In this document: positions 1 to 36,158 of the stretch, piece by piece
How positions within the stretch are numbered: position 1 is the stretch's first letter
Layout of the letters: every line of letters begins with the position of its first letter
Notes under the pieces: generated by a model
The model's database searches: none
What the model saw: the letters and a program-made list of their open reading frames with translations, nothing else
Told to the model about the DNA's origin: nothing
Made by a program: the position numbers and the translations under genes
IMG/VR virus record: IMGVR_UViG_3300035182_000286
Coordinates: 1-36,158 of that record
DNA: 36,158 nt
From: a virus
Reading direction: 5' to 3' (one strand)

Positions 1-679
1 CAACATGGTGCAGGTCGAGTACCTGTTGCCAGTCCCCAAGGTGAAGGTCATCACCCCGCACGAGATCCTGAGCGACAAGGAGATCGCCCGCTACCTGGCC
101 GCAGCGAAATTGCAAGGGAAGCGCGACTATGCGCTCCTGGTCGTGGCCCTTGGCTCCGGTGTCCGCGTGGCCGAGCTGGTCCACCTCGACGTTCAGGACA
201 TCCGCTTCGATGGGATGGGCTCTGTGATCCACGTCCGCCAGGGAAAGGGCGGGAAGGATCGGATGGTCCCCGTGAGGAAGGAGGTCCGGAAGGCCGTGGA
301 CGCCTATCTGGACGAGACAGGCCGCAAGCCCACCGACAAGGGCCCCTTGTTCCTCAGTGAAGACCGGGCCATGGGAAGCCGTGACTCTTGGCGCCTGACC
401 ACAAAGTCAGCATCCCGAATCGTGAAGGCACTGGCTGAAGCCGCGGGCATCAGGAAGCGCGTCTCACCTCATGCCCTTCGCCATACCTTTGCAGCCGCAA
501 CCTTCATGCACAGTCGGAACGCCGTCTTCGTGATGAAACTCTTGGGTCACGCCAGCATCGCAACAACCATGCGCTACATCGACCACCTGGTGGACTCGGA
601 CCTCCGCAACGCTTCGCCGGCCTTTCTGGTCGGAGGCAAGGGGCCGAAGGTTTCACTCTCACTCAAGAAGGCCGCCTAG
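1..679 (+). CDS. Tyrosine recombinase, C-terminal catalytic part (cut by window start)
   Basis: This is the catalytic domain of a XerC/D-like tyrosine recombinase, which cuts and rejoins DNA through a covalent phosphotyrosine intermediate. Numbering from the first ATG (position 5), the catalytic set is visible: Arg54 in SGVRVAEL, Lys81 in GKGGKDR, His156 and Arg159 in SPHALRH, His182 in LLGHAS and the nucleophile Tyr191. The frame is open upstream of the ATG to the first base, so the ATG is probably not the true start and the N-terminal DNA-binding domain is missing here. The gene at 35944-36158 encodes such an N-terminal part in a frame that continues exactly into this one, so the two are probably one gene split by the linearisation point. 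It is a different protein from the integrase at 3877-4884. Family assignment is firm; its biological role is not known. Confidence 0.9.
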   Translation, partial: NMVQVEYLLPVPKVKVITPHEILSDKEIARYLAAAKLQGKRDYALLVVALGSGVRVAELVHLDVQDIRFDGMGSVIHVRQGKGGKDRMVPVRKEVRKAVDAYLDETGRKPTDKGPLFLSEDRAMGSRDSWRLTTKSASRIVKALAEAAGIRKRVSPHALRHTFAAATFMHSRNAVFVMKLLGHASIATTMRYIDHLVDSDLRNASPAFLVGGKGPKVSLSLKKAA

Positions 680-709: not shown

Positions 710-769
710 CGCGTAATCTTCCTGCTTCGTCTCCGTACCCATCCAGAAAGGAACTCGCATGGAGTTTGA
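707..769 (+). CDS. Possible 20-residue leader peptide before the RNA ligase
   Basis: A short frame begins at an ATG directly behind a strong copy of the repeated ribosome-binding leader and ends with TGA just inside the start of the RNA ligase gene (ATG at 759). The product would be 20 residues with a hydrophobic, Arg-rich start and no recognisable domain. The overlap would let ribosomes finishing the peptide restart on the ligase. It may be a real coupling peptide, or the leader may be a relic of a lost gene. Confidence 0.35.
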   Translation: MRVIFLLRLRTHPERNSHGV

Positions 770-1295
770 AAAATTTCCAAAGATCGCCCGTCTGTCCCGC
801 GAGTGCGTCATCACCGAGAAGATTGACGGGACCAATGCCCAGGTCTACATCACCGAAGACGGTCAGATCCGCTTCGGTTCCCGCACCCGCTGGATCACGC
901 CCGAGGATGACAACTACGGATTCGCCCGGTGGGGCATGGAACACCGCGAAGAACTGCTCCGGCTTGGCGAGGGGCGCCACTTCGGGGAGTGGTGGGGGCA
1001 GGGCATCCAGCGCAAGTATGGGATGACCGAAAAGCGGTTCAGCCTGTTCGATGTGTTCCGCTGGGATGGTGAGGACCGCCCCGCCTGCTGCTCAGTGGTG
1101 CCCACCCTCTACCGTGGCGACTTCATCAGCGATGCCGTGACCGCTGCGCTGGAAGACCTCCGCGAGAACGGGAGCAAGGCTTCCCCTGGGTTCATGAAGC
1201 CCGAAGGCATCGTGGTCTATCACACGGCTGGGCGCATGTATTTCAAGAAGACCATCGAGAAAGATTCCGAACCGAAGTCTAGGCAGATCACCTGA
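759..1295 (+). CDS. Minimal RNA ligase (nucleotidyltransferase fold)
   Basis: A 178-residue protein with the motifs of the RNA ligase family (Rnl2-like, PF09414 type). Such enzymes use ATP to adenylylate themselves and then seal RNA ends. Motif I is EKIDGTN with the likely adenylylated Lys21. The residues FGEWWG (75-80) match motif III, EGIVVY (149-154) motif IV and FKKTIEKD (162-169) motif V. It stops just after motif V, so the extra C-terminal domain of larger phage RNA ligases is absent. The ATG at 759 is preceded by AAAGGAACTCGC, a good ribosome-binding site. Phage RNA ligases are known to repair tRNA cut by host defence nucleases, but no partner kinase/phosphatase is seen here, so the substrate is an inference. 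A DNA ligase role is less likely given the motif spacing and size. Confidence 0.8.
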   Translation: MEFEKFPKIARLSRECVITEKIDGTNAQVYITEDGQIRFGSRTRWITPEDDNYGFARWGMEHREELLRLGEGRHFGEWWGQGIQRKYGMTEKRFSLFDVFRWDGEDRPACCSVVPTLYRGDFISDAVTAALEDLRENGSKASPGFMKPEGIVVYHTAGRMYFKKTIEKDSEPKSRQIT

Positions 1296-3643: not shown

Positions 3644-3880
3644 GTGATCCTCACCCAGCAGAAGTTGATCGAGCAGCTGCGGGCCCACGACATCCACGTC
3701 GGGCCCCAGACGATCCATGCCTGGGTGAGGGCAGGGGCCCCGACTGTGCCGGGCTGGAAGAAGCCCAGGTTCATCCTGGCCAAGGTCATGGAGTGGCTCG
3801 ACGCCGTGGGGCAGGTGGATCCGCTCGAGCTGGACGTGCGGGATAGAATGTTCCGCAAGGGACTTCGAAGGGCATCATGA
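3644..3880 (+). CDS. Excisionase-like helix-turn-helix protein (78 aa)
   Basis: A 78-residue protein with a MerR/excisionase-type winged helix: the helix-turn-helix lies around IEQLRAHDIHVGPQTIHAWVRAG and is followed by a wing (WKKPRFI) and a helix containing VMEWLD. Xis proteins bind and bend attachment-site DNA and steer the integrase towards excision. The position supports this: it overlaps the integrase start by ATGA (3877-3880). The start is GTG behind AGGAG and a run of eight C. Another small DNA-binding regulator of the integrase would look the same. Confidence 0.7.
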   Translation: MILTQQKLIEQLRAHDIHVGPQTIHAWVRAGAPTVPGWKKPRFILAKVMEWLDAVGQVDPLELDVRDRMFRKGLRRAS

Positions 3881-4884
3881 CCAGGTGGCTGTTCAAGCGG
3901 GGCAAGTTCTACTGGTACCGCTTCTCCATAGGTGGGATCGAGTTCACCGGCAGCACAAAGGCCACGGACAAGGCCACCGCCATCACCATCGCCGAGATCG
4001 TCCGCCGGGACACCGTCCTGGGCGGACACGGCATCCGGAAGGCCCCGACCCTCGGCGCGGTGGCTGCGGAGTGGCTGGGAAGCCGCGGGAAGTCCGCCAG
4101 CCCATCGCATCGCCGAGCGGCCACGCAGAGCCTAGAGGCCCTGGGGATGCTCACGAAGCTGCCCTTGGACCGCCTTACTACCCCGACCATCCAATCCTGG
4201 CAGGCGGGGCACCTCCAGAACCATAGCCCGGCCAGCACGAACCTCGTCCTACGCTACCTGAAACTATGGGTGCGCTGGGCACTGGGCCAGAAGCTGATCC
4301 GAGAGATGCCCTACACCGTGAAGCCCACCAAGCAGCAGCAGCGTCCCCGCCCCGTGGTGGAGGACGTGGCCGGGTTCCTGGCCAAGGTGGACACGGGCGT
4401 CAGGAACCACCAGGTGCCCGCCGCCGTCCGCTTCACCTTGATGCTGGGCCTCCGGGAGGGCGAGGTGCTCCAGGCCCGCTGGGAGTGGCTGCGGGATGGA
4501 GCCTACACTGTGGCGGGCAAGACCAAGTCCTCGAAGATTCGCACCATTCCCGTGCCCGAGGCGCTGCGGGTGTCCCTCATGCAGATGCTTGCGGCCAAGG
4601 AGCAGGGCCCCGCCCAGGTGCCGGACCTCGGCCTGATCTTTCCCGGCACGGGCGGCCGGCCGCATCGCCAGGGCTGGCTGCGCCAGGCGCTCAAGCGCGG
4701 GGGCATCGACGGCCTGGGCATGCACCGGCTGCGGGCCACGTTCATCACCCTGCACCTGCGAGCCGGGGCCCCGAACAAGGAGGTCCAGGATATGGCCGGC
4801 CACGAGGATATCCGGACGACCATGCTCTACACTGAGAGCAGCCAGGACGTGAAGCGGAAGCAACAGGACAAATTGTGGGCTTGA
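3877..4884 (+). CDS. int: Phage integrase (tyrosine recombinase)
   Basis: A full-length 335-residue tyrosine integrase. The N-terminus (FKRGKFYWYRFSIGG) is a short arm-binding beta-sheet domain, residues about 60-145 form the SAM-like core-binding domain, and the catalytic domain follows. Catalytic residues visible: Arg193 (GLREGE), Lys215 or Lys217 (GKTKSSK), His283 and Arg286 (HRLR), His309 (GHE) and the nucleophile Tyr318. It overlaps the excisionase-like gene and ends 76 bases before a sequence copied from the 3' part of a tRNA gene, the classic arrangement for an integrase that uses a tRNA gene as attB. It should insert the phage into the host tRNA-Thr(CGU) gene. It is distinct in sequence from the recombinase split by the window ends. 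Confidence 0.95.
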   Translation: MTRWLFKRGKFYWYRFSIGGIEFTGSTKATDKATAITIAEIVRRDTVLGGHGIRKAPTLGAVAAEWLGSRGKSASPSHRRAATQSLEALGMLTKLPLDRLTTPTIQSWQAGHLQNHSPASTNLVLRYLKLWVRWALGQKLIREMPYTVKPTKQQQRPRPVVEDVAGFLAKVDTGVRNHQVPAAVRFTLMLGLREGEVLQARWEWLRDGAYTVAGKTKSSKIRTIPVPEALRVSLMQMLAAKEQGPAQVPDLGLIFPGTGGRPHRQGWLRQALKRGGIDGLGMHRLRATFITLHLRAGAPNKEVQDMAGHEDIRTTMLYTESSQDVKRKQQDKLWA

Positions 4885-16532: not shown

Positions 16533-17939
16533 TCACACCGCCAGCGGTTCGAGCTGCGCTTCAAGACGGATGAATGCCAGCCTGGCCGTGCTGTCCCCAC
16601 GGAACCGCTGGACTCGCCAGTTCTGCATCCGGCCCTGCCGACGCCACACCAACCGCTTGGCCCGGTCTCCCTGCTTGCCCACAGCCACGTAGCGGTCCTG
16701 ACTCCAGATCTCGCCGTCGATGGAGTAGGACGTGCTGACTTGAGGGTCATCCCCCAGTGCCACCCGCCCAGGTAGGACCACAAGCTCCAACTCGGAGAAG
16801 ATGGCTCCGTTCCCGCCGTTGTATACGATGGTGGTCCCGAACTCCCAGCGAACCTTCTGGCCCCAGTGAGAGCCCACGTCCTGGGTCATGTAGCCGACCG
16901 CGTAGGACTGCGGGTCAGAGACAAGCCATTGGTTGTAGCACCACACGAAGTCCTGCGCCCGGTATTGGCTGAAGCCCACCACGGAGGTCGTGTGTGTGAA
17001 CCACACCGGTACTCCACCTACCGCTTCACCTACGGCCCCGTCGAAGACCAGGGTGCGGTCGGGTAGGTGGACCAGCAGGTAGTGGTTGTTCCGATCAACC
17101 CGGGCCTCGAGTATTGCCATTGCCAGTTGAGCCTCGGTGAACTGGGCTAGGATGGTATCGACTTCTTGGGTGCTGATCTTGGTGGCTGTGGCATTCACCC
17201 CGAGGTAGATCCCGGGCGGCTCATTCCGACCACCGCCCACGAAGGCGATGGCATCCATGTAGACGCAGCAGGCATGGGTTCCGACACAACCCTTGGTGAT
17301 CTGGGCACCAGTGACGACCTGGAAGGGGAATAAGGACCCACCGACGTTGTCGAAGACCTCGATGGTGTAGCGGTTGACAGCGTAGATCTCGTTACGGAGC
17401 TTCTGGAGGGCCACGATGGGATCAGGATCTGCCTCAGAGGACCCGTATTTCAGCGGGTTGACCGCAAATGGGTCAGTGAGCTCCGTGACGATGATATTTG
17501 TGCCGTCAGTGGTCATGAAGTAGCCACCGATGAAGACCACGTCAAGGACGGTCCCAAGGTCTGGATCGGTCACCTGTGCGAGAGTGACGCCGTCCCAGTA
17601 GTAGAGGAATCCACCGGCCGCAATAGCCAGGAGGTCAAAGCTGTAGGTCATGGAGACATGCTCTGTCCCGGCGACGTTGCCGAACACCGCCACATTTCCG
17701 GTTGGGCCGACTCCGACCAGATTGCTGCCCATCACCCTGTAGCACCGACCGTTCCAGTTGATGCCCCCGCGGCCGATACCTGGCCCGGTTCCGTTCTGCG
17801 CAATCCCATCCCCAGGACGCAGATACCCCTGGCTGATCCCATTGTCCTTTGGGACCGGGACCAGGTTGACGGGATACGACGACCGAAGCTCCGGACCGTT
17901 GTCAGTGTAGATCCCGCTGAGGATGGGGATTTGAGACAT
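16533..17939 (-). CDS. Packaged DNA stabilisation/head-completion protein, gp10-like
   Basis: A 468-residue protein matching P22 gp10 in length (472) and order and in its N-terminus (IPILSGIYTDNGPELRSSYPVNLVPVPKD, the signature beginning of the Phage_stabilise family). The rest has repeated beta-propeller-like blades with YYWDG, YMTQDVGSHWGQKVRWEFG and similar. In P22, gp10 binds the gp4 ring below the portal and closes the DNA-filled head. The same role is expected here because gp4-like, coat and portal proteins are also present. Confidence 0.85.
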   Translation of the reverse strand: MSQIPILSGIYTDNGPELRSSYPVNLVPVPKDNGISQGYLRPGDGIAQNGTGPGIGRGGINWNGRCYRVMGSNLVGVGPTGNVAVFGNVAGTEHVSMTYSFDLLAIAAGGFLYYWDGVTLAQVTDPDLGTVLDVVFIGGYFMTTDGTNIIVTELTDPFAVNPLKYGSSEADPDPIVALQKLRNEIYAVNRYTIEVFDNVGGSLFPFQVVTGAQITKGCVGTHACCVYMDAIAFVGGGRNEPPGIYLGVNATATKISTQEVDTILAQFTEAQLAMAILEARVDRNNHYLLVHLPDRTLVFDGAVGEAVGGVPVWFTHTTSVVGFSQYRAQDFVWCYNQWLVSDPQSYAVGYMTQDVGSHWGQKVRWEFGTTIVYNGGNGAIFSELELVVLPGRVALGDDPQVSTSYSIDGEIWSQDRYVAVGKQGDRAKRLVWRRQGRMQNWRVQRFRGDSTARLAFIRLEAQLEPLAV

Positions 17940-20796: not shown

Positions 20797-22071
20797 CTAG
20801 GTCTGGCTGAAGAGCATGATTCCGCTCATCTCAGGCTGCTTGTTGACCACGCCAAACATGGTATCGAGGCGGTACTTGGTCTTCATGGTGTTGATGTCGT
20901 ACTGCTTCTGCAGCACAAGCTCGATGCCCTGGTCGGTGCTGGCCTTCATGACGGCGGCACCAGCGTCCGTGGGAACGGCATACCGGCCCGGCAGGATCTC
21001 GAGGGCGTCCTTCTGCCAGAACGCGTTGACGGGGGCCGCCACGGTGTTCAGGAACACGATGGCCGAGTTGGCAGCCTTGGTGTTGATGACACAGTTCTGG
21101 TAGGCCAGTTCCTGGTCGGTTCCGCCCTGGCCAGTGATCATGGGCGGGGTGATGACAAGGGTCGTTCCGGAGGCCACGGAGATGACCCGGAAGGTCTTCA
21201 GCTGACCGGTGTCGCCCTTGGTGATGTGGTGGACGGCGTTGAGGGTGGCAACGGTGAAGCAGTCACCAGCCGCGACGTTCGCGGTCGTGGAGACCGTGAT
21301 GGTCTGGAAGCGGTTATCGACGTTGGCGGTTTCACCCGTGGCCGCGACACTGACCGACTTCGGGGTGTAGTAGTTGGCGCCCGCGTCAGCGGTGGACATC
21401 GTGATACCAGCGCCGCCCGCGGCGGCCTGGAGGCGATTCGCATAGTCCAGCTTGTAGGTGTCGAAGCTGGCGACCATGCCCACGAAGGCACGCTCGTAGG
21501 CCTTGACGGACTTGGCGCCGTCGAAGCTTCGGCTGGCCTTGGACAGGTCGGAAGCCATGCCGTTGTAATCCCGGGTGCTAAGGGCCAGGTAGCGGTCGAA
21601 CTGCTGGACGCCCTGCTCATTCATGATCGCTTCGCACTGAGCCACGTCATCGAAGCCCGCGGCGGCAGTGGTCCGCTTGACGACCAGGCTGCCCTGGGCG
21701 GCGGCCACATTCATCAGTGCCACGTTGATGTCGGAGGCCAGTTTCTGCTTCGCGGCATCACCGAGACGGCCTTCCCTCAGGCTGTCGCGGAGTTCCGTGG
21801 CGGACAGGATCCATGGGCTGGAGCGGTTGAAGCCGATGGTGGAGGGCACGGACAGCTGCATACTGTCGTTGAAGTTCGGGGTCTGGTCCGTGCCAGAGAA
21901 GGACTGAGCGACGAAGGGCTGCGGGCGCCAGATGATGTTGGCGCTGCGCTCCATCTCGGTGGAGTTGGTGTTGTAGACGCTGACGTTGCGGGAGAGGACG
22001 AGAGCGTCCTGGAAGCCTTCGAGGATGTTCTCGAAAGCTACCCGCTCTTCCTTGGAAAATGCATTGCTCAT
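20797..22071 (-). CDS. Major capsid (coat) protein, P22 gp5-like
   Basis: A 424-residue protein (P22 coat: 430) following the scaffold gene. Segments such as ENILEGFQDALVLSRNVSVYNT, MERSANIIWRPQPF, and the later DFDTYKLDYANR-like helix fit the P22 coat family (PF11651, HK97 fold with inserted domain). It forms the icosahedral shell. The start lies behind AAGGAACCAAC. The 74-base gap to the 201-residue gene contains no obvious hairpin, so transcription probably continues into it. Confidence 0.85.
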   Translation of the reverse strand: MSNAFSKEERVAFENILEGFQDALVLSRNVSVYNTNSTEMERSANIIWRPQPFVAQSFSGTDQTPNFNDSMQLSVPSTIGFNRSSPWILSATELRDSLREGRLGDAAKQKLASDINVALMNVAAAQGSLVVKRTTAAAGFDDVAQCEAIMNEQGVQQFDRYLALSTRDYNGMASDLSKASRSFDGAKSVKAYERAFVGMVASFDTYKLDYANRLQAAAGGAGITMSTADAGANYYTPKSVSVAATGETANVDNRFQTITVSTTANVAAGDCFTVATLNAVHHITKGDTGQLKTFRVISVASGTTLVITPPMITGQGGTDQELAYQNCVINTKAANSAIVFLNTVAAPVNAFWQKDALEILPGRYAVPTDAGAAVMKASTDQGIELVLQKQYDINTMKTKYRLDTMFGVVNKQPEMSGIMLFSQT

Positions 22072-22080: not shown

Positions 22081-22935
22081 TTATCGGGTGGTTTTGGCGT
22101 CGCGCTGCTGCTGCTTGTACTGGTGGACCTTGGTGAAGTCCCCAGTCTTGGCAGCCTCTTCGCGCAGCCGGTCGAGGGTTGAGTCCACAGCCCCAGAGAC
22201 ACCGCGGGCAGCGGCGATCCTTCCCTCGGGCGGTGGCGGGGCGGATTTCTTGCTGACTTTCAACTGGGCCTCCAACTTGGCGACGGCGAACGTGAACTTG
22301 ACGGCGTCCTGGATGCTGGCCAGCTTCTGGGCCTGCTCCGGGTTCTTTCCGAGGGCGTAGACCACCAGCGCGGGATTCTCTGCCCCTTGGACAATGATCC
22401 CCTGCTGGGTGACGCTGAAGATGGCCTTCGCATCGGCCTCAGCCTCATCGAAGTCCTTGAGCCTAAGGTCTGTCTTGGCCTTCTGGTAGCCGTCGAGCTT
22501 GGCCTGCCACTCAACCGTGGCCTTGGCCTCAGCATCCTGGAGTCCCTTGACGTGCTCATCGTGCTGGCGCTTCTTGTCGTGCCACTGGTCGAGGGTGGTG
22601 GCGAAGAGCTCCTCGTCGTAGTCGCAACTGGCAAGGGTGGGCTTCTCGGGCAGACCAGCAGGCTTGGGCTCCGCGGTCAGGGCCTTGAGCTTGTCCTCCA
22701 GCTCCTTGTTCTTGCGCACCTCTTCACGGTGCTTCTTACGGAGCTCACGCACCCACTCGGGCGCCTTCTGCTCCTCTTCAACGGCGGGGTCCGGGGTTGC
22801 CGGGTCGCCGATCGTGACTACCAGTTCGCCCCCCTCGGTCTCCTGCTCAGCGGCTCCACCTTCGGCGTTCTCGTCGGTGGCCACGCCCTCAAGAATCTCG
22901 GGTTCGGCTGGGTCGTTCGTGGTGATGACGGTCAT
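22081..22935 (-). CDS. Scaffolding protein, P22 gp8-like
   Basis: A 284-residue, highly charged and mostly helical protein: an acidic, Glu-rich N-terminus (about 1-60), then KAPEWVRELRKKHREEVRKNKELEDKLKAL and further helices, ending with a basic helix-turn-helix-like tail (RLREEAAKTGDFTKVHQYKQQQRDAKTTR). The basic C-terminus is where P22 gp8 (303 residues) contacts the coat protein. It lies between portal and coat genes as in P22. Overlaps the portal stop by ATGA. Confidence 0.8.
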   Translation of the reverse strand: MTVITTNDPAEPEILEGVATDENAEGGAAEQETEGGELVVTIGDPATPDPAVEEEQKAPEWVRELRKKHREEVRKNKELEDKLKALTAEPKPAGLPEKPTLASCDYDEELFATTLDQWHDKKRQHDEHVKGLQDAEAKATVEWQAKLDGYQKAKTDLRLKDFDEAEADAKAIFSVTQQGIIVQGAENPALVVYALGKNPEQAQKLASIQDAVKFTFAVAKLEAQLKVSKKSAPPPPEGRIAAARGVSGAVDSTLDRLREEAAKTGDFTKVHQYKQQQRDAKTTR

Positions 22936-25052
22936 TGGGGCATTCCTGTCTGCTCGGGCGAGGGGGCGGCCGCCTGGTCTCCGCTTGGTGCTGGTTCTTC
23001 TGTGATCTGGCCCACGGCCTTGCCCAGCTGCTGGGCCACTGCCAGCGCGTGGTTCTGAGCATCGATGCTCAGGGTGGACATGACCTTTTCGGTGTCAGCC
23101 TTCACCTTCTCGGTGTCGGCGACGATCTTGATGGTGTCGGCCTTGGCCTTGGTTGCCTTGGCCTCCTCGTTGGCTGCCATGGCGTTCATGAGCTCGGTCT
23201 GAGCATCTGGGGGCTGGCTAGCTGCAGCCGCTGCGAGCACCTTCTGCTCGTCCTCGGTCGGCTTCACGACCCCCATCTTCACGAGCTTAGCGCGGAAGTA
23301 GTCTCGGACCTCCGAGACCCCTTCGCCCTCCATGTTCATCATGATCATGGACTGCAGCACCTGCTGGGTCTCAGGGTCCTGGGTCAGGGCCATGATGTTC
23401 GTCAGGTTCCGGACGATGTTCTCCCGCTTGCTCATCGAGGAGGGGCCAACCTCCACAGCCACGTCCATCGAGGCGTCTGAGACATCGTTCGTGATCTTCA
23501 GTTCGCCAGTCTCAGGATCCAGGATCGGCTTGGCCATCTCCACAGACCCAGCCTCACCTCGGTCTCCGATGGTCTTCATCTTTCGGCCCTCTTCGCCTCC
23601 GGGGTAGATGTCCTTGGCCATGCTGAGCCAGATCTCGCCAGACCGACGGATCGCCTTGGCCATGTTGCTGATGTAGATGAAGGCCTGCATATCTAGGCGG
23701 GTCTGCACCAGTTCGATGGCCTTGCCGCTGATGTTGGAGACCATCTTGTCGGCGCCCTGGGGGTTCCCGAGGATCTCCTGCATGTCCTGCTCGGTGAGCT
23801 GCAGCAGGGCGGCCATGGCCGGCGGGATCTCCGGGGCCTTGGTATAGGCCATGGGGCCGGCGGGGAGTTCGTTCCCGTTGGGGTCCGTCATGGGATTCAA
23901 GAGTAGGAATGGGTAGTTCTTCAGGTTGTCATCGGCCCACATCAACTGGTGACCGCTGATCTGCTGGGGGGTCAGGATCGGCTTCGAGACGCTGGACAGG
24001 GCGCTGATCTCGCCCAACTTGCTCAACTGCATGTTCTTCAGCCGCTGGGGGTCCTTGGCCAGGCGCACGTGGCCCATGCACCGTTCGATGCCGTCCACGA
24101 ACCAGCGCTTGCCGAACATGGGCACGACCGGAATGCATTTCCCAGCGATGCGGCCGCAGTCTTCAAGGACCTTCCCACCACTCATCAGATACTTGTGGAC
24201 CTTCTTGATCTTGAGCTTCTTCTCGGAGACCCGCACCCAACCGGTGGCCAGCAACTGGGGCTCGATGTCCTCATCCTCATCCAGCTCGCTGATGAGGTAT
24301 ACCTCCTCGTCCCCAGTCAGGCTCTTGAACGTGATGGCCACGTCCTTGACCTCTTCCACCCGGTAGTACTCGGCCAGGTAGACGACGTTGGGGGTGATCC
24401 AGTCGAACTGGCCCCCGGTAAGGTTGATCTTGGGCCAACTGGCGGGGTCGTCCTTGTATTCCTCCTTGTAGGCCGGCACGGTCATGGAGGACAGCACGAA
24501 GCAGTGCTTGGCGTCGGCCTTATCCTGGCGCTTGGCGTCCAGGTCGAAGAACACGCAGGAGTCGGCGTCGTAGATCGGCTCAAACCGGATCCGCTGCCTC
24601 AGGTCCTCGGGATCCTCGTCGTTCTCGTAGGTCGCCCGCAGCCGCCAGGCCCCGATGCCACCGCCCACACCCTCCTCGAAGGCGTTGTCGTAGGCCTCCT
24701 CGGCAGCACTGTCCTGCTCGTCGGCCCGGTAGAGCCCCGCGCAGGTGTCTGCTAGGCCCATGTCCTCAGCCCCATCCTTGGGCACGAAGGAGACGTCGAT
24801 TCGGTTGTTTCGGTACTCGTTGAAGATCCGGATCACAGCCAAGTGGACCTTGTTGACCTCGAACTTCGGCTTGTTCTCGAACTGCTCGCCCAGGTTGCCT
24901 TCCCACTGAGCCCCGGCGATGGAGTAGAACCGGCGATCCTCCAGGCACTGCTGGCGCTCCTCACGCACAGCGGTCTGGATCTCGTTGAACTGGCGTAGGG
25001 CCGTCTCATGGACCGCCTTCAGCCGTTCTTCCTTCGTGGGTCGGGACATCAT
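22932..25052 (-). CDS. Portal protein, P22 gp1-like
   Basis: A 706-residue protein (P22 portal: 725). The N-terminus (FYSIAGAQWEGNLGEQFENKPKFEVNKVHLAVIRIFNEYRNNRIDVSF) is the typical opening of the P22-type portal family, and the long C-terminal helix with Lys/Ala/Thr repeats (EEAKATKAKADTIKIVADTEKVKADTEKV) fits the barrel helices of these portals. It forms the twelve-fold ring for DNA passage. The start is set at ATG 25052, overlapping the terminase stop by ATGA; codons upstream of it are inside the terminase gene. Confidence 0.9.
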   Translation of the reverse strand: MMSRPTKEERLKAVHETALRQFNEIQTAVREERQQCLEDRRFYSIAGAQWEGNLGEQFENKPKFEVNKVHLAVIRIFNEYRNNRIDVSFVPKDGAEDMGLADTCAGLYRADEQDSAAEEAYDNAFEEGVGGGIGAWRLRATYENDEDPEDLRQRIRFEPIYDADSCVFFDLDAKRQDKADAKHCFVLSSMTVPAYKEEYKDDPASWPKINLTGGQFDWITPNVVYLAEYYRVEEVKDVAITFKSLTGDEEVYLISELDEDEDIEPQLLATGWVRVSEKKLKIKKVHKYLMSGGKVLEDCGRIAGKCIPVVPMFGKRWFVDGIERCMGHVRLAKDPQRLKNMQLSKLGEISALSSVSKPILTPQQISGHQLMWADDNLKNYPFLLLNPMTDPNGNELPAGPMAYTKAPEIPPAMAALLQLTEQDMQEILGNPQGADKMVSNISGKAIELVQTRLDMQAFIYISNMAKAIRRSGEIWLSMAKDIYPGGEEGRKMKTIGDRGEAGSVEMAKPILDPETGELKITNDVSDASMDVAVEVGPSSMSKRENIVRNLTNIMALTQDPETQQVLQSMIMMNMEGEGVSEVRDYFRAKLVKMGVVKPTEDEQKVLAAAAASQPPDAQTELMNAMAANEEAKATKAKADTIKIVADTEKVKADTEKVMSTLSIDAQNHALAVAQQLGKAVGQITEEPAPSGDQAAAPSPEQTGMPQ

Positions 25053-26374
25053 GACCACCTGTTCATAACGGGCAGAGGAACGGCCTGCTTCTCAGTCTTC
25101 TTGGGCAGTACGATCCCTCCGAACAACTCAGCGAGGACCCAGATCCAGGCGTCCGCACGGTTCGGAGACTTGCCGCCGAGGTAGCCGCTGGTCGAGAAGG
25201 CGGTGAGCTCGTCCTCCAGCTCGTGGAAGTCGCCGACGTGGCGGATCTTCCCCTGCTCGTAGAGGGCGCTGAAGGGCTCAGCCCGGACCGCCTTGGACCT
25301 GGTGGCACTCACGGAACGGTAGGGCGTCCGAGGCCGAGCGGTCTGGATGGTCGCCTTGACCATGGCCCCGCCGTAGTTCTCCTCGCCCACGACCACGTCC
25401 GCCTGGTGCCGGTCAAAGGCCTGTGTGGCAACCCGGGCCCAGGTAGCGGGGCCAGCCTTGACCGTGCAGTCCTCCAAGAGGTAGGCGTTCCCGTCCGTTC
25501 CCAGGCCGCCCACGCAGATCCCGATGGCATCATTGTCCGGGGAGTCCCCATCCGCTCCGGAGGGATCCACACCGACCACAACCCGCACGAAGTCGGGCAC
25601 CTTGCCGTCTGTCACCCGCCACTTATCGAAGTCCTCGTCGTGGAACAGGGCGTTCGGGGTGGCGTCTGCGAACTCCCCCTTGAGGAACCGCTTCTGCAAG
25701 CGCACAGACAGGCCTAGCAGGGTGTCCAGGTAGTCCTTGCTGATGTTCTCGGTGTTGTCCTGGGGGTTGATCTGGAACAAGGCGTAGTCATCCGGGTTCG
25801 GAAGGGGCTTCTTGGTCTCGGTATCCCGCTTCTCTACAAAGAGCGAGTAGGTCCAATGCGCCTTAGATGGCGGGTTCTCGTCGTAGTACATCCGCGGCTG
25901 CAGTCGAACCGGCGGTCGGCCCTGGATGATTTGGTCCACCTGCTGGGCCAGACGGGTCACGGCCAGGTCCCGGGAGCCCCGGGGGATCTGGCTGGCTTCG
26001 TTTAGGTAGATGGTACAGAACTCCATGCCCAGGATCTTCTCGGTGCGCTCCTTGTCATCCAGGCCGCCGAACCAGATCTGGCTGCCGTTGTCGAACTCGG
26101 CGAACCAGTCAGACTTGTCCATCCGAAACGTCACGCCCGGGAAGGCGAGCTTCATCACCTTGGGGAAGGTATCCAGGACGACCGAGGCCTTCACCGCATT
26201 GAACCGGAACCGGAGGATGGCGTGGCGACTCATAGGGGCCTTCAGCGCCCGCATGACCACGTTGCGCACCAGGAGGAACGTCTTCCCAGACCGGGAGCCC
26301 CCAAACAGCATGATGTGGGTTGCTGGGCCTGAAAGAACGGACTGGGCCTCCGTCTGGCGGGTGGTGAGCCTCAT
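25049..26374 (-). CDS. terL: Terminase large subunit
   Basis: A 441-residue packaging motor. The ATPase domain has Walker A GGSRSGKT (25-32) and a Walker B ending CTIYLNEAS with catalytic Glu126. The RNase H-like nuclease domain begins at VVVGVDPSGADGD with Asp270 and has further acidic residues near Glu301/Asp302 and Asp408 (RADAW). It cuts concatemeric DNA and pumps it through the portal. It overlaps the small subunit and portal genes by ATGA on both sides. With a P22-like head and portal, headful packaging is expected. Confidence 0.95.
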   Translation of the reverse strand: MRLTTRQTEAQSVLSGPATHIMLFGGSRSGKTFLLVRNVVMRALKAPMSRHAILRFRFNAVKASVVLDTFPKVMKLAFPGVTFRMDKSDWFAEFDNGSQIWFGGLDDKERTEKILGMEFCTIYLNEASQIPRGSRDLAVTRLAQQVDQIIQGRPPVRLQPRMYYDENPPSKAHWTYSLFVEKRDTETKKPLPNPDDYALFQINPQDNTENISKDYLDTLLGLSVRLQKRFLKGEFADATPNALFHDEDFDKWRVTDGKVPDFVRVVVGVDPSGADGDSPDNDAIGICVGGLGTDGNAYLLEDCTVKAGPATWARVATQAFDRHQADVVVGEENYGGAMVKATIQTARPRTPYRSVSATRSKAVRAEPFSALYEQGKIRHVGDFHELEDELTAFSTSGYLGGKSPNRADAWIWVLAELFGGIVLPKKTEKQAVPLPVMNRWS

Positions 26375-28823: not shown

Positions 28824-28835
28824 CGTTCTACCCAA

Positions 28836-30188: not shown

Positions 30189-31030
30189 GCCCACCTCAGG
30201 CCACTCGGACGTGGCGCCTCGACGTTCTTGGATCCGAACCCGCCGGTCCCGTAACGGGCCGCGTTGCGCAGCTTGGCCTCGAGGTCGTCGGCATCCCACG
30301 GCGGGGAACAGGTCATGTTCCAGTCCATCATCGCGGCCAGGGCGTCACCTTCGGACAGGTCGAAGTCCCGGACCAGAATGCAGGCCACGCGGTAGGTGTG
30401 GGCGTCCCCGCCGGCCCCATGGATGGCCGGTGGCACGTTCCGCAGGTAGGCGATGGCACGGCGTACCGGGCCGTCCCCGCGCTGGATCGCCTGGGACGCC
30501 GGGCGCATGATGCGCTGCGGCTCGGGGAACCACCTGGCGTCGTAGACCGGCAGATCATGGATGGGCACGGTCCAGTCGCCCAGGGCCTCGTAGATCACGC
30601 CGGTCCAGTGAACGGACCCGGGAGCCACGACGTAGCCGCCGTTCGCCTTGCGGTCAAGGCCGCAGGATAGGACGCGGACCTTGTTCGAGGGGGCCTGTTC
30701 CTCGTCCTTCAGCCGGTAGAAGCGGTGGTGGCCCTTCGCAGTGCGGGTGATCCATGGGGTCTGGGGCAGGGACTCGGCGGCCCACTCGTCAGCGGCCGGC
30801 GTGTCCGAGTCCAAAACGACCAGGCGCGAGGGGCCTAGGGACAGGCCCAGGTTCCAGTTGTTCCGGTCCCAGGCTGCGGCCTGCTCGTCCGTGGTGCAGA
30901 TCGCCAGGGGCTGCCAGTCATCGAAGCGGGGCTTTTTCCCGGTCTCGGGGTTATTGGGCTGGGGGTCGATCAGTGGGAACGGGTAGAGACCCATGGCGCG
31001 GAAGGCTCGGGCAGAGGGGAAGGTGGTCAT
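30185..31030 (-). CDS. Primase-polymerase (Prim-Pol domain)
   Basis: A 281-residue protein with the archaeo-eukaryotic primase-type Prim-Pol fold: the metal-binding VVLDSD (Asp74, Asp76), the nucleotide-binding GHHRFYR (100-106), and GGYVVAPGSVH. The C-terminal part (ARRAIAYLRNVPPAI-like helices, then ALAAMMDWNMTCSPPWDADDLEAKLRNAARYG) is a PriCT-like domain. It synthesises primers and is paired with the RepA-like helicase, with which it overlaps by ATGA. Together they are the replication core. Confidence 0.85.
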   Translation of the reverse strand: MTTFPSARAFRAMGLYPFPLIDPQPNNPETGKKPRFDDWQPLAICTTDEQAAAWDRNNWNLGLSLGPSRLVVLDSDTPAADEWAAESLPQTPWITRTAKGHHRFYRLKDEEQAPSNKVRVLSCGLDRKANGGYVVAPGSVHWTGVIYEALGDWTVPIHDLPVYDARWFPEPQRIMRPASQAIQRGDGPVRRAIAYLRNVPPAIHGAGGDAHTYRVACILVRDFDLSEGDALAAMMDWNMTCSPPWDADDLEAKLRNAARYGTGGFGSKNVEAPRPSGLRWA

Positions 31031-31194
31031 GACGCCATCCCCTCATCCACTAGGTGACGCTCAAAGATAACGATGGTCCGAGCCTCGGCCAGGTGTTCTT
31101 CGGCGCGGGCGAATCCTTCGGGGGTGCCAGACATGAAAGCGAACTTAGCCTCTTGAAGCAGGTTCTCGAACTTGATCCGGGCAGCGGCGCTCAT
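31027..31194 (-). CDS. Small helical protein upstream of primase (55 aa)
   Basis: A 55-codon frame coupled at both ends by ATGA overlaps (start 31194, stop 31027). It is predicted helical (RIKFENLLQEAKFAFM, then FARAEEHLAEARTIVIFERHL) with acidic patches. No family is recognised. The exact fit between coupled neighbours argues that it is real; it may be a replication accessory or regulatory peptide. Confidence 0.65.
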   Translation of the reverse strand: MSAAARIKFENLLQEAKFAFMSGTPEGFARAEEHLAEARTIVIFERHLVDEGMAS

Positions 31195-31397
31195 GACAGA
31201 GCCCCCAGCAGCAGCAGCACGAAGAACACGACGAAGCAGAAGCCGATGAATACCATCTCGGCGCGGGTGGGCTTAGACAGCACGTTGCACTCGGGGCAGG
31301 GCAGTTTCTCGATGCTGGGTGTGAAGCCGCCATACCAAGGGCCCTCGTACCAGCCGCGCCCCTTGCACCTGGGGCACCAGGGATCGAGGCCGCTCAT
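31191..31397 (-). CDS. Zinc-ribbon plus membrane-anchor protein (68 aa)
   Basis: A 68-residue protein with CPRCKGRGWYEGP and CPEC, a DnaJ-like CxxCxGxG/CxxC zinc site, followed by a C-terminal membrane segment (VFIGFCFVVFFVLLLLGAL). The start at ATG 31397 overlaps the previous stop by ATGA; a longer frame upstream is inside that gene. Domain order is that of a small tail-anchored zinc protein. Function unknown. Confidence 0.65.
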   Translation of the reverse strand: MSGLDPWCPRCKGRGWYEGPWYGGFTPSIEKLPCPECNVLSKPTRAEMVFIGFCFVVFFVLLLLGALS

Positions 31398-31504
31398 CGA
31401 AACAAGCTCAGGAAAGCGTCCCAGACCAGGGCGGCCGCCATAAGGCAGCATATGATCATTGGGGCGTCTTGCAGGGCGAAGGGTTCTGGTTTACTCTTGG
31501 TCAT
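31394..31504 (-). CDS. Small membrane protein (36 aa)
   Basis: A 36-residue frame from ATG 31504 (behind ACGGAGTGAGC, a good ribosome-binding site) to a TGA overlapping the next ATG. It has one hydrophobic stretch (APMIICCLMAAALVWDAFLSLF) likely to span the membrane. It is the first gene after the terminator hairpin at 31535-31562. Function unknown. Confidence 0.6.
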   Translation of the reverse strand: MTKSKPEPFALQDAPMIICCLMAAALVWDAFLSLFR

Positions 31505-31534
31505 GCTCACTCCGTGTTAGCGGGTTGCAGTTCA

Positions 31535-31562
31535 GAAGGCCGGTCGTCGCTGACCGGCCTTC
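31535..31562. terminator. Hairpin between the Cro-like gene and the replication operon
   Basis: GAAGGCCGGTC and GACCGGCCTTC form a perfect 11-base-pair stem with a six-base loop. It lies just downstream of the Cro-like gene stop (31588), like tR1 after cro in lambda. The T-run is weak on the minus side, so termination may be partial or Rho-assisted. The replication operon lies beyond it with no obvious promoter of its own, so read-through would be required. Confidence 0.6.
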
Positions 31563-31587
31563 CCCTTGTTGTGGGTAGAGTCATTCA

Positions 31588-31839
31588 TTATGCCGACCAG
31601 CGTTCGAGTGTCGGTGGGTATTGACCTACGGCCCAAACGTCGGGGCGCATCGTCCAGCATGGGATGAGGTGCCCCATGGCCAGGCTCTCGCGGTGGATGG
31701 CGATGGCCAGATCAGTGCTGCAGTTATGTACTCCGAACTGGTCGAAGTCGTTCAGGGCGCGATACATGCTGGACTGATGGATGTTGCACCGTTCGGCAAG
31801 ATCGGGGACACGAAATCCGGGAGGCAGTTTGATATCCAT
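31588..31839 (-). CDS. Cro/YdaS-family transcriptional regulator (83 aa)
   Basis: An 83-residue DNA-binding protein. Residues about 12-32 are the helix-turn-helix (PDLAERCNIHQSSMYRALN) and the C-terminal MRPDVW is the characteristic end of YdaS/Cro-like phage regulators (usually RPDLW). ATG 31839 is chosen because it starts the conserved domain; the frame is open much further upstream, into the divergent control region, but without domain content. It faces the plus-strand promoter and two inverted repeats and is probably the operator-binding switch protein. Whether it acts as lysogenic repressor or as Cro cannot be told. Confidence 0.75.
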   Translation of the reverse strand: MDIKLPPGFRVPDLAERCNIHQSSMYRALNDFDQFGVHNCSTDLAIAIHRESLAMGHLIPCWTMRPDVWAVGQYPPTLERWSA

Positions 31840-31847
31840 GCACCAAG

Positions 31848-31866
31848 TTTCGCCCAAAACGCGAAA
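31848..31866. promoter_or_regulatory. Operator-like inverted repeat in the regulator leader
   Basis: TTTCGC and GCGAAA are perfect inverted arms with a seven-base spacer, located 9 bases upstream of the Cro-like start. It may be an autoregulatory operator. Not similar to the second palindrome at 31905. Confidence 0.4.
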
Positions 31867-31904
31867 GACGCAAGGGGATTCGTGCCTGCGTGTGGGTTTT
31901 CTCA

Positions 31905-31919
31905 GTATTTGTGAAATAC
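31905..31919. promoter_or_regulatory. Palindrome GTATTTGTGAAATAC, candidate operator
   Basis: A perfect 6+3+6 inverted repeat immediately before the likely -35 box of the plus-strand early promoter. Size and spacing suit a dimeric HTH regulator such as the adjacent Cro-like protein. Binding is inferred. Confidence 0.5.
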
Positions 31920-31922
31920 CCC

Positions 31923-31950
31923 TTGACCTGTTCTCAAAAAGTGCGACCAT
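31923..31950 (+). promoter_or_regulatory. Candidate early plus-strand promoter
   Basis: TTGACC (31923-31928) matches the -35 consensus in five of six positions. GACCAT (31945-31950) is a weak -10 with a 16-base spacer. It lies about 50 bases before the first plus-strand gene (31998) and next to the palindrome at 31905. The weak -10 keeps confidence moderate. Confidence 0.45.
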
Positions 31951-31997
31951 GGATCCAAGCAAGCACCCCACCCACCCTGAGCGACCAGGAGACCCCC

Positions 31998-32222
31998 ATG
32001 ACTTGGACCAAGAGCACCACGACCAAACACACCCACGACGTTGTCTTCGGCCGCAAGGTAGATGGCTGCCCCCGCTGCGAAGAACTGAAAGCTGGCGCAG
32101 CACCGGTGAAGTGGAACATCGACCGCAAGCGGATCAATGACCAGATGCTGGCCCAGGAGATCCGGAACCACAACTGCAGCGCCTCTGGCTGCGGCCCCAT
32201 CTGCACCTTCGGTCAGTGGTAG
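31998..32222 (+). CDS. First early gene: small Cys-containing protein (74 aa)
   Basis: A 74-residue protein starting at ATG 31998 behind CAGGAGACCCCC, a strong ribosome-binding site; codons upstream in this frame belong to the control region. It has CPRCEEL in the middle and HNCSASGCGPIC near the end, a likely zinc site, and a basic segment (KWNIDRKRIN). First gene of the plus-strand operon, the place where phages often put antiterminators or host-takeover proteins. No family recognised. Confidence 0.7.
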   Translation: MTWTKSTTTKHTHDVVFGRKVDGCPRCEELKAGAAPVKWNIDRKRINDQMLAQEIRNHNCSASGCGPICTFGQW

Positions 32223-32226
32223 CCCC

Positions 32227-32337
32227 ATGCGCCGATCCATCCGTTCCTTCGACGCTGAGACTTCCCTCGGCTACTTCGTCCTATTCACGATGGCCGGGCT
32301 CATCGCCTGTGCCATCGCCTTCCCCCACCTCTTCTAA
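32227..32337 (+). CDS. Small single-span membrane protein (36 aa)
   Basis: A 36-codon frame from ATG 32227 to TAA 32337. A basic, polar N-terminus (RRSIRSFDAE) is followed by one membrane segment (YFVLFTMAGLIACAIAFPHLF). It lies four bases after the preceding stop in a tightly packed operon. A real gene is likely; role unknown. Confidence 0.55.
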   Translation: MRRSIRSFDAETSLGYFVLFTMAGLIACAIAFPHLF

Positions 32338-32348
32338 CGGAGCGACCC

Positions 32349-32624
32349 GTGAGAACCACAGAACAGCAAGCCCCCGAAGCCATCGCCCAGTTGATCCCCA
32401 AGCTCACGCAGCTCACCACCGAGCAGCCGACCACCGCCGAGCTCGAGGAGGCCATCCTCGCCTCCAAGGCCATCACCCGCGCCGTCTTTGAGTGGTTGGC
32501 CGCCCGCTACTGCGCCCAGGCCACCGCCCGCAAGGCCTACGAAACCACCTCCGAGCAGTCGGGGCTCAACCACGTCCACCCCACCTTCGCCCCGATGATC
32601 TCCGGCCTCCGGATCGCCCGGTGA
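32349..32624 (+). CDS. Helical protein of unknown function (91 aa)
   Basis: A 91-residue, mostly helical protein starting at GTG 32349 behind CGGAGCGACCC. It contains TTAELEEAILASKAITRAVFEWLAARYCAQ. It directly precedes the recombination genes; no family is recognised. Its stop overlaps a following very short frame. Confidence 0.65.
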   Translation: MRTTEQQAPEAIAQLIPKLTQLTTEQPTTAELEEAILASKAITRAVFEWLAARYCAQATARKAYETTSEQSGLNHVHPTFAPMISGLRIAR

Positions 32625-32689
32625 GGCGCCTACTCCGTCGCTACTACCTCCACTTCAACCCCTACCACTTCAACCCGGAGACCACATGA
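32621..32689 (+). CDS. Possible coupling peptide (22 aa)
   Basis: GTG 32621 overlaps the preceding stop (GTGA) and the 22-codon frame ends in an ATGA overlap with the ATPase start at 32686. The product would be Arg/Tyr-rich. It may serve only to carry ribosomes across the gap; the ATPase also has its own GGAG, so the peptide is uncertain. Confidence 0.3.
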   Translation: MRRLLRRYYLHFNPYHFNPETT

Positions 32690-33858
32690 ACGCCACCTTC
32701 CACCGCGCCACCCGACACCAGGTGCCTCTCAAGATCGGCATCACGGGTCCCAGCGGATCCGGCAAAACCACCGCGGCCCTTGAGTTGGTCCAGGGCCTTA
32801 CGGAGGGCCCCATCGCCTTCCTCGACACTGAGAACGGCAGCGCCAGCCTCTACTCGCACCTCGCCACCTTCGATGTGATGGATATGGTGCCCCCCTATCA
32901 GGTGAAGAAGTTCACCGATGCCATCCAGGCGGCCGTAGACGGCGGCTACAAGGCCCTGATCATCGACAGCGGATCCGCTGAATGGTCGGAACTTCTGGCC
33001 GAAAAGGAGGCCATGGACAGCCGGGGTGGTAACAGCTTCGCCAACTGGGGAAGCATCACCAAGAAGCATGAGGACTTCCTCAAGGCCATTCGTAACGCCC
33101 CCATCCACCTGATCGTCTGCCTCCGCGCCAAACAGGAGCACGTCCAGGACAAGGACGCCGCGGGCCGCACGACCGTCCGCAAGGTCGGCATGGCCGCCGT
33201 GCAACGCGAGGGCATGGAATACGAACTCACTACGGTCTTCGACATCGCCATGGACCACAATGCCAAGGCATCCAAGGACCGCACGGGCCTTTTCGAGGGC
33301 CGCCTGGAGCCCGTCACAAAAAAGACCGGTCGCGAGATTGCGGCGTGGCTGTCCGGTGGTGGCGTCCTGGCCCCGGTGGAAGCGCCCGCCCCAGTCTTCG
33401 AGGCGCCGCACCCTACCCCCACGGCCCCCGCTGCCAGTGCTACCCATGCCGAAAGTGGTGCAGAGAAGCCTGAGCCGAAGTCCGTAGGCGAGGCCATCCT
33501 CCAGATGCCGGCGCCGGAACCCACTGCCGTCAGCCAGGCCGCCAACGACTTCGTGGAGGGTATCGATCCCACCCCGGCCTTCATCACCCAGGGCCAGTGG
33601 GAGGAGGTCGCTGAGTGGACCAAGAAGGCTCCAGACCTGCCCCGCCAGCTCAAGGCCTACAGCATCACCAAGGGCTGGCTGAAGCCCAATGCGCAGGGCC
33701 TGAACACTCTCCTGGCCTCTTGCTGGGTGCAGCTCTCCAACCAGATCCAGAACCGTTCCGAGGCGTTCATCGCTCACCTCAACTCCCACTTCCCCACCCA
33801 GTCCGCACCTGCTGCCGAACCCACCACCACCAAGGGCCGCAAGCCCAAAGCCGCATAG
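32686..33858 (+). CDS. Sak4/AAA_24-type ATPase (phage recombination)
   Basis: A 390-residue RecA-fold ATPase of the AAA_24 phage nucleotide-binding family. Walker A GPSGSGKT is at 21-28 and Walker B ALIIDS with Asp94. Sak4-like proteins of this type assist single-strand annealing and homologous recombination with a phage SSB. The conserved domain ends near residue 230. The C-terminal ~160 residues are an Ala/Pro-rich linker followed by a helical module that is an extension beyond the usual core. The neighbours (SSB-like protein, YqaJ nuclease) strongly support a recombination role. ATG start behind CGGAGACCAC. Confidence 0.8.
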   Translation: MNATFHRATRHQVPLKIGITGPSGSGKTTAALELVQGLTEGPIAFLDTENGSASLYSHLATFDVMDMVPPYQVKKFTDAIQAAVDGGYKALIIDSGSAEWSELLAEKEAMDSRGGNSFANWGSITKKHEDFLKAIRNAPIHLIVCLRAKQEHVQDKDAAGRTTVRKVGMAAVQREGMEYELTTVFDIAMDHNAKASKDRTGLFEGRLEPVTKKTGREIAAWLSGGGVLAPVEAPAPVFEAPHPTPTAPAASATHAESGAEKPEPKSVGEAILQMPAPEPTAVSQAANDFVEGIDPTPAFITQGQWEEVAEWTKKAPDLPRQLKAYSITKGWLKPNAQGLNTLLASCWVQLSNQIQNRSEAFIAHLNSHFPTQSAPAAEPTTTKGRKPKAA

Positions 33859-33870
33859 GAGCACCACACC

Positions 33871-34305
33871 ATGTCCTTCCTCGATCTCAGCAACACCAGC
33901 AGCACCGACAACGCCCCGCGGCTCACTGCGGGCACCCACCGCGTCAACCTGACCAAGCTGGCCTACGTCGCCTCCAAGGACAAGGCCCTGGCCGTGTTCA
34001 CCTCCACAGAGGGAGCCGAGTACCTGGAATGGCTCGGAACCTCCTCCGATGGCGCCAAGAAGCGTATGAAGGCGTTCCTGATCCTCCTGACGCAGTTAGC
34101 CGGCGTGTCCCATGACCTGAACTTCGCGTCCATGGACGACTTCGATGCGCTCGGCCTCCAGATCGTGGATAAGTGCCCCGCGCTCCAGATCAACCTGGTG
34201 GACGATACCTACGAAGGCAAGACCCGCCAGATCCTGAGCGGCTACTTCTCCGACGCCATCACCGAAGCCCCCGTGGACTTCGACCCCACCGCGGATGGTT
34301 TCTGA
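33871..34305 (+). CDS. Single-stranded DNA-binding protein-like (144 aa)
   Basis: A 144-residue protein with an acidic C-terminal tip (PVDFDPTADGF) like that used by SSB proteins to recruit partners. The body (TAGTHRVNLTKLAYVASKDKALAVFTSTEGAEYLEWLG...) has OB-fold-like strands as in phage SSB-type proteins found between ATPase and exonuclease genes. It probably coats single strands for the Sak4-like ATPase and YqaJ nuclease. A GGAG lies before the ATG. The family assignment is from context and the acidic tip. Confidence 0.65.
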   Translation: MSFLDLSNTSSTDNAPRLTAGTHRVNLTKLAYVASKDKALAVFTSTEGAEYLEWLGTSSDGAKKRMKAFLILLTQLAGVSHDLNFASMDDFDALGLQIVDKCPALQINLVDDTYEGKTRQILSGYFSDAITEAPVDFDPTADGF

Positions 34306-34997
34306 TGACCGGACTCCTCGAGATCTCCCACACCTACGCCCTGCCCAACGGAGCGAAGGTCTACGAAATTCCCCAGCACAATGATGACGGCACGGCGAAC
34401 ATCGAGTGGCTGTGCCTGCGCGCTGGGAAGGTTACCGGCTCCAGGCTGAAGGACGCCATGGATCGCACCGCCAAGGGCGCCTCCAGTTCCAAGCGCACCG
34501 GTTACCTCTGGCAGCTCGTCCAGGAGACGCTCACCGGGCGTCCGGCCCCCGCGGAGTTCGTGAACGACGCCATGCGCTGGGGCTCCGAGTGCGAGGCGTT
34601 CGCCCGGGCCCAGTACGAGCAGGACCGCGGCCCCATGCAGACCGTAGGAGTCATCATCCACCCTACCATCGAGCGCGTGGCCTACAGCCCCGACGGACTG
34701 GTAGGCGAGGACGGTCTGATCGAGATCAAGTGTCCCACCAGCCAGACCATGCTCCAGTGGTTGCTGGCCGGCGTGATTCCCGAGCAGCACCTTCCCCAAC
34801 TCAACATGGCGCTCTGCGTCACGGGTCGGGAGTGGATCGACTTCATGTCCTACGACCCCCGGCTTCCCGAAGGGTTCGACCGCATGATCATCCGGCACCA
34901 CCGGGACGAAGCGGCCATCACCAACGTGGAGCGCGAGGCCCTGGCGTTCCTGGCCGAGGTGGACCAGACCATCACCGCCCTTCGGGACCGGTTCTGA
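34305..34997 (+). CDS. YqaJ-type (lambda-exo-like) recombination exonuclease
   Basis: A 230-residue nuclease of the YqaJ family. GKVTGSRLKDAM (about 41-52) is the family's N-terminal motif, MRWGSECEAFAR (90-101) contains an acidic active-site helix and SPDGLVGEDGLIEIKCP gives the D-E-K catalytic set (Asp130, Glu140, Lys142). It degrades one strand from double-strand ends to make substrates for annealing. The start at ATG 34305 shares its A with the SSB-like stop (TGATG); upstream codons in this frame belong to the SSB gene. Confidence 0.9.
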   Translation: MTGLLEISHTYALPNGAKVYEIPQHNDDGTANIEWLCLRAGKVTGSRLKDAMDRTAKGASSSKRTGYLWQLVQETLTGRPAPAEFVNDAMRWGSECEAFARAQYEQDRGPMQTVGVIIHPTIERVAYSPDGLVGEDGLIEIKCPTSQTMLQWLLAGVIPEQHLPQLNMALCVTGREWIDFMSYDPRLPEGFDRMIIRHHRDEAAITNVEREALAFLAEVDQTITALRDRF

Positions 34998-34998
34998 G

Positions 34999-35349
34999 AT
35001 GCCCCTCGTCTACGTCAGTTCCCCCTATACGGCTGCCACCCCCAAAAAGGTAGCGGCCAACACCAAGAAGGCTGTGGCCATGGGGCAGCACGTCCGTGCC
35101 ATGGGCGGTATCCCCATCGTTCCCCATGTTGCCGTCCTGGACTTCGGCGTGGCTCCCTCCGAGTGCTGGGACCAGGCCATGCGGGAATGCCTTGCCCTGA
35201 TGGCCGTGTGCGATGTGGTTCTCATGTGTGAGGGCTGGGAAGCCTCCCATGGGTGCTGTGAAGAGCAGGCCATTGCCGAGAACTCATCCATGCACGTCTG
35301 CTACTCCGTGGCAGACCTGATGGGATTCCTTGAAAGGGCCGCAGCATGA
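34999..35349 (+). CDS. Deoxyribosyltransferase-like protein (DUF4406/DUF7768 type)
   Basis: A 116-residue protein with YVSSPYT at the start, an Asn and helix (NTKKAVAMGQHV), GGIPIVPH in the middle and CDVVLMCEGWEASHGCCEEQAIAE near the end. This is the pattern of the nucleoside 2-deoxyribosyltransferase-like DUF4406/DUF7768 group found in many phages, thought to act on nucleotides. The Glu in the last motif is the likely catalytic or binding acid. Its N-terminus is partly repeated in the short gene at 2100-2276. Substrate unknown. Confidence 0.75.
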   Translation: MPLVYVSSPYTAATPKKVAANTKKAVAMGQHVRAMGGIPIVPHVAVLDFGVAPSECWDQAMRECLALMAVCDVVLMCEGWEASHGCCEEQAIAENSSMHVCYSVADLMGFLERAAA

Positions 35350-35720
35350 CCCCGGCCGCTGCATTAGCCGCCCACATAGCTACCAACCCAGGCCGACCGG
35401 CCCTGAGTCTCCCCATGGACGAATACCGCCCCCTGATGCTGGCCTACGAGCGGTGGCTACTGGTCAAGGGGAATCTAGAATCCGCCGTGACGGTGGCCGG
35501 GATCATCGTCCCTCCAGCCATAGATCAGCGCGGTTTGGCCTGCACCCCCCGCGCCGACTACGAGTGGCGAGACATCCCCAAGCGCAAGGCCCGGCCCAAC
35601 AAGCCGGCATGGAGTGGAGCCACCAGGGAATACAACCGGCAGAAGCAAGCAGAACGTAGGGCAAAGATCCGCCAGGCAGTGCTCGATGTTCAGGCTGAAC
35701 GTGATGGGAGGGCGACATGA
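35346..35720 (+). CDS. Basic protein of unknown function (124 aa)
   Basis: A 124-residue protein with ATGA overlaps at both ends. The N-terminal half is helical (YRPLMLAYERWLLVKGNLESAV) and the C-terminus is strongly basic and helical (REYNRQKQAERRAKIRQAVLDVQAERDGR), which would suit nucleic-acid binding. No family is recognised. Confidence 0.6.
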   Translation: MTPAAALAAHIATNPGRPALSLPMDEYRPLMLAYERWLLVKGNLESAVTVAGIIVPPAIDQRGLACTPRADYEWRDIPKRKARPNKPAWSGATREYNRQKQAERRAKIRQAVLDVQAERDGRAT

Positions 35721-35947
35721 CTCACCCAATGCCAGAGAATGCCCCCACCATGATCCGCGACCAGGCCGAGCTCACCGATCTCCGATTCATCGTCCAGCAG
35801 ATGGTCTACAGCCACGACCGCTACGTTCAGAGGACCAGCAACTTCAACGAGTGTCTCTGCAGCCTGTGCCGTCGCTCTCGCCCCTGGGTGATCCCTCAGC
35901 TGGTCAGGTTCTGCGACTCCATCAATGAGCATGAGGAAGTGCTATGA
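35717..35947 (+). CDS. Small Cys-rich protein of unknown function (76 aa)
   Basis: A 76-residue protein with CLCSLCRRSRPW, a compact CxCxxC group that might bind zinc together with His or Cys elsewhere (FCDSINEHEE). ATGA overlaps with both neighbours place it firmly in the operon, directly before the tyrosine recombinase. Function unknown. Confidence 0.65.
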   Translation: MTHPMPENAPTMIRDQAELTDLRFIVQQMVYSHDRYVQRTSNFNECLCSLCRRSRPWVIPQLVRFCDSINEHEEVL

Positions 35948-36158
35948 GTCTCTTTTCCGAAAGCGAAGAGAACCTTGAGATGGTGCCAGCGCTGACTCTC
36001 GACCGGGTTCCCATGCTGAACCCTGACTCGCTGATGCCCCAGGTCGTGGAGGCCTATCTCGCCTCACAGATCCCGAACCCAAAGACGGCCCGCGGGTATC
36101 GGCGCCACATCCTGGCCGCCGTAGACATGATGGCAATCGAGCGGCTGTCAGACCTTCA
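35944..36158 (+). CDS. Tyrosine recombinase, N-terminal part (cut by window end)
   Basis: The frame starts at ATG 35944 (ATGA overlap) and runs 71 codons plus two bases to the window end. After a ~30-residue polar lead it has VVEAYLASQIPNPKTARGYRRHILAAV, the first helices of the SAM-like core-binding domain of XerC/D-type recombinases (compare the NTLNAYRRDL region of XerD). The last two bases (CA) plus the first base of the window (C) make a codon, and the frame then runs directly into the catalytic domain at 1-679. The second half of the core-binding domain is not present on either side, so about 40-50 codons are probably missing at the join. Confidence 0.8.
   Translation, partial: MSLFSESEENLEMVPALTLDRVPMLNPDSLMPQVVEAYLASQIPNPKTARGYRRHILAAVDMMAIERLSDL

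Follow-up and report, generated by a model that had tools for sequence, protein, structure and literature searches.

Genes at and between the two ends of the record

The window analysed here is one entire IMG/VR viral record (G000; 36,158 bases) and carries part of a tyrosine recombinase gene at each of its ends. At the right end, an ATG at position 35944 on the plus strand opens a reading frame that runs without a stop through the last 215 bases (35944..36158), encoding residues 1–71 and two bases of codon 72 before truncation by the contig end. The left end carries the 3' part of the gene (1..679, plus strand) in a frame open from base 2 and closed by the stop codon at 677–679, which encodes residues 116–341 when the first window base is included. 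This left part matched the Phage_integrase catalytic domain in Pfam (PF00589, 7e-34); the 71-residue right-end piece alone had no Pfam match, and it was identified as a recombinase N-terminus because of its matches to relatives. Straight translation over the join gives a stop-free product of 297 amino acids with the codon CAC at the junction. Terminal direct (8–399 bp) or inverted repeats were not found at the window ends, and the window thus lacks the direct terminal repeat of 20 bp or more that characterizes a closed contig.

The operon around the recombinase reads, in order, YqaJ exonuclease, small genes, recombinase, RNA ligase, methylase, xis-like gene and integrase. All of the following genes lie on the plus strand: an AAA ATPase resembling Sak4 annealing protein (32686..33858; PF13479, phrog_124), the YqaJ-like exonuclease of the recombination module 5' of the recombinase (34173..34997; PF09588, 1e-20; phrog_149), the RNA ligase directly after it (759..1295; PF09414, 6e-18; phrog_548) and the integrase, a second tyrosine recombinase (3877..4884; PF00589, 4e-16; phrog_1). 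The motif YTGTCCA, often lengthened to CTGTCCATCTGGAGGAACCA, was also observed repeatedly in intergenic positions 3' of the recombinase (window 687, 1298, 2279, 2526 and 2725, plus strand), where its copies sit right after a stop and mostly right before a start. The 20-mer form had four matches against 0.01 expected, and similar intergenic copies were present in contigs G001, G002, G003, G005 and G010.

The head module is encoded on the minus strand and includes a P22-like portal (22932..25058; PF16510, 2e-155; Sf6 gene 3 protein 7sfs, 6e-133), a P22-like coat protein (20797..22071; PF11651, 4e-85) and a gp10-like head closure (stabilisation) protein (16533..17939; PF11134; Sf6 gene 8 and P22 gp10 structures). 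The genome also encodes ejection proteins resembling gp16 and gp7. The terminase large subunit (TerL; 25049..26374, minus strand) belongs to phrog_979 (2e-67; PF04466, PF17289) and was 48% identical to its closest phage homologue, from Synechococcus phage Ssp-JY42; a search of solved structures (PDB sequences, E 0.001) returned no match. The P22-like label given to this genome in the earlier note holds for the head module, with its portal, coat and gp10-like proteins. Relatives of TerL in genomes came from Dyella jiangningensis and one deltaproteobacterial MAG, which is insufficient to name a host.

A bridging contig and the missing 132 bp

An independent contig from a separate metagenome (G007; IMGVR_UViG_3300036715_000699; 18,819 bp) ties the right end of the window to the left. 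Within its recombinase locus, L008, positions 1–4867 were 100% identical to window 31292–36158, with the 5' part of the recombinase gene at L008 4653–4867, and positions 5000–5152 were 100% identical (153/153) to window 1–153 in the same orientation and frame. The two matches are separated by 132 nt (L008 4868–4999) that are absent from the window. Coverage of the left end by this contig is 153 bp only; among other IMG/VR contigs the exact bridge sequence was found in G007 alone, and an exact 24-mer located further into the left-end gene fragment than G007 reaches matched no contig. Over window 17625–36158 identity to G007 was 99.84%. All 30 differences in this 18.5-kb overlap (L012) are confined to a 1.25-kb patch at window 19724–20974 that resembles a recombination tract.

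Ten loci were returned when the left-end gene fragment served as query, and in six of them (L008, L003, L002, L005, L006 and L004) the 71-residue piece matched the same gene that carried the C-terminal match (E 1e-43 to 5e-19), an agreement far beyond chance. Loci L002–L006 from this search and L153–L155, which were found with an alignment and probably represent one phage in three metagenomes, each hold a single uninterrupted gene. The corresponding codons (about 44) were present in all eight of these full-length homologous loci, at about 60–95% amino-acid identity. Because the uninterrupted genes of eight relatives have matching codons, the 132 bp are ancestral and absent from the window rather than inserted in G007.

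These results uphold the proposal in the earlier note that the two terminal reading frames belong to one gene, and the check it had suggested, for relatives with both parts in a single gene, came out in its favour. Its view that the operon reads coherently across the join also stands, as gene order continues sensibly across the 132-bp gap. The direct in-frame joining of the ends that it had described fails on the intervening 132 nt of L008 and on the lack of any terminal overlap. The frame is open over a direct join because 132 is divisible by three, and it is by chance that the final CA and the initial C complete a codon. In the intact gene the right-end codon reads CAG (Gln72), not CAC, and the intact protein has 341 residues, not 297. 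The note's caution that a frame match alone proves little was well placed, and this case shows how little an open frame over a join says about closure.

The recombinase gene as a possible point of assembly breakage

The window is very probably a metagenome contig of a nearly whole P22-like temperate phage whose circular map spans about 36,290 bp and was broken at a 132-bp stretch within the recombinase gene. Assembly would have halted on either side of this stretch, leaving the two ends of the gene at the contig ends without overlap. The intact gene encodes a 341-residue Xer-like recombinase of the early operon, where it follows the recombination genes and precedes the RNA ligase. The halt was probably caused by an assembly branch arising from related recombinase genes in co-occurring phages, or by low coverage; similar sequence in co-occurring phages is the simplest cause, and low coverage is equally possible. 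For G001 the longest exact match was 47 nt and lies inside the missing 132 bp, and for G002 it was 53 nt and lies outside it; a k-mer tangle is thus a candidate cause. Trimming of a 127-nt k-mer overlap from both ends was also considered and rejected, as it predicts 127 missing bases and not 132.

The closest solved structures to an intact homologue were XerA, a XerC-like protein and XerD. The catalytic domain carries the R-K-HxxR-H-Y residues (PF00589 and alignment to XerA 5hxy). In the intact gene an N-terminal SAM-like core-binding domain was found, with PF02899 above cut-off on L006 and L008 and below it on L003; the window alone carries only the first half of this domain. The recombinase resembles Xer recombinases in its core-binding and catalytic parts and in the conserved R, K, HxxR, H and Y motifs, but differs from them in being phage-encoded within an early operon; in the window, moreover, the contig ends divide the gene and 44 residues are absent. 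A pattern search for relatives in bacterial genomes found none.

The most interesting by-product of this analysis is a Xer-like recombinase with a catalytic part that reaches 98% identity between phages otherwise sharing few genes. Intact copies occur in phages that have few other genes common to the window. The gene is about 85–90% identical in DNA among the window, G001 and G002, which have little else in common, and similarity to G002 begins at the recombinase start codon and stops 14 nt past the stop codon. The window, G002, G003, G005 and G006 each carry two different tyrosine recombinases, a Xer-like enzyme encoded in the early region and an integrase-like one.

Five of the ten contigs with this recombinase end inside the gene or within about 110 bp of it (the window, G007, G002, G004 and the L153 contig), which suggests that the gene is a spot where assemblies tend to break. 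This could be interpreted biologically, in that the enzyme recombines DNA in or close to the gene encoding it and generates heterogeneous DNA on which assembly breaks. The break points differ, however, falling inside, upstream and downstream of the gene with no single site, which makes a biological cause less likely, and the DNA identity among copies of the gene could by itself tangle assembly; we consider this account of the window ends very unlikely. The broader idea that the Xer-like gene is a mobile or self-acting locus, with closely similar copies next to a second integrase in phages that are otherwise little related, and with DNA made heterogeneous by the enzyme's action on its own locus and hence frequent contig ends, is likewise improbable.

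It is scarcely credible that the window ends truly abut, forming a closed ring with its overlap trimmed and a 297-residue recombinase that carries a 132-bp deletion. The direct join is in frame without a stop, as this would require, but the 132 bp are present in a contig with 100% identity on both flanks, and all eight full-length homologues have the region. The deletion would also remove residues 72–115, which are not encoded in the window and include 19 positions invariant among five relatives, together with two helices of the core-binding domain (73–85 and 91–111) predicted from a structure model of the L003 homologue, a model of middling quality (mean pLDDT 67) used for helix placement only. 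With half of the DNA-binding domain absent from it, the 297-residue product is not to be annotated. The record is best read as near-complete and ring-like, yet 132 bp short within one gene, and closing it by end-to-end joining would be wrong. The finding is one of ordinary phage biology and an assembly gap, in which the idea of a ring was right and the literal in-frame join was wrong.

Ring map and P22-like relatives

The window, read from left to right, and G007, which leads from the right end to the left via the 132 bp, together form the ring map, which merges the assemblies of two nearly identical phages from separate samples, 30 SNPs apart in one patch. The intracellular molecule may be a circle, or the virion may contain circularly permuted DNA with terminal redundancy. 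Related ring-like contigs were sought with the terminase large subunit as query, and end repeats were found in G003 (77 nt), G016, G023 and G032 (127 nt) and G027 (123 nt), while further terminase-related contigs had end repeats of about 140–180 nt with few mismatches. The ring openings of these contigs are scattered, lying 4,972–35,317 nt past the start of TerL in the downstream direction, and are compatible with a circle or with a circularly permuted and terminally redundant genome alike. Short-read assemblers working on circular templates leave k-mer-long repeats at arbitrary positions, and linear genomes that replicate via concatemers likewise yield end repeats (PMC8116208). The window is similar to closed metagenomic contigs with k-mer-sized direct terminal repeats (CheckV, PMC8116208) in its ring-like template and arbitrary opening, but its ends have no overlap and 132 bp are absent instead, so that this assembly by itself provides no direct closure. 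The ring-like map of a P22-like phage expected in the earlier note is thus borne out, as one contig bridges both ends and related phages assemble as rings, with end repeats of roughly k-mer or read length located at scattered positions. A linear genome with fixed ends, in which the gene would span the terminus only via reads from intracellular concatemers, is hardly plausible, as no relative supports a terminus within the conserved gene here, G007 passes through it and the terminase-related rings open at scattered places.

The circularly mapping phage described here has in common with P22/Sf6-like podoviruses the portal, coat, gp10-like closure and gp16/gp7-type ejection proteins, a temperate-type integrase and the ring-like map, and differs from P22 and Sf6 in its phrog_979 TerL. 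Its early region, with two tyrosine recombinases, an RNA ligase and a YqaJ exonuclease, may differ as well. By kinship to the P22-like head module, packaging may be of the headful type.

Two further observations were made on related contigs. G002 appears to be a ring opened just 3' of the recombinase, as short reading frames open at its right (L014) and left (L013) ends are in register and the join is followed by a xis-like gene and integrase as in the window, although, here too, matching register over a join says little. Three metagenomes each yielded a contig of a related phage (L030, L031 and L032), and all three contigs start 44–49 nt before the TerL start, where a low-complexity assembly break is likely because the end of G011 is a C-rich, proline-coding run.
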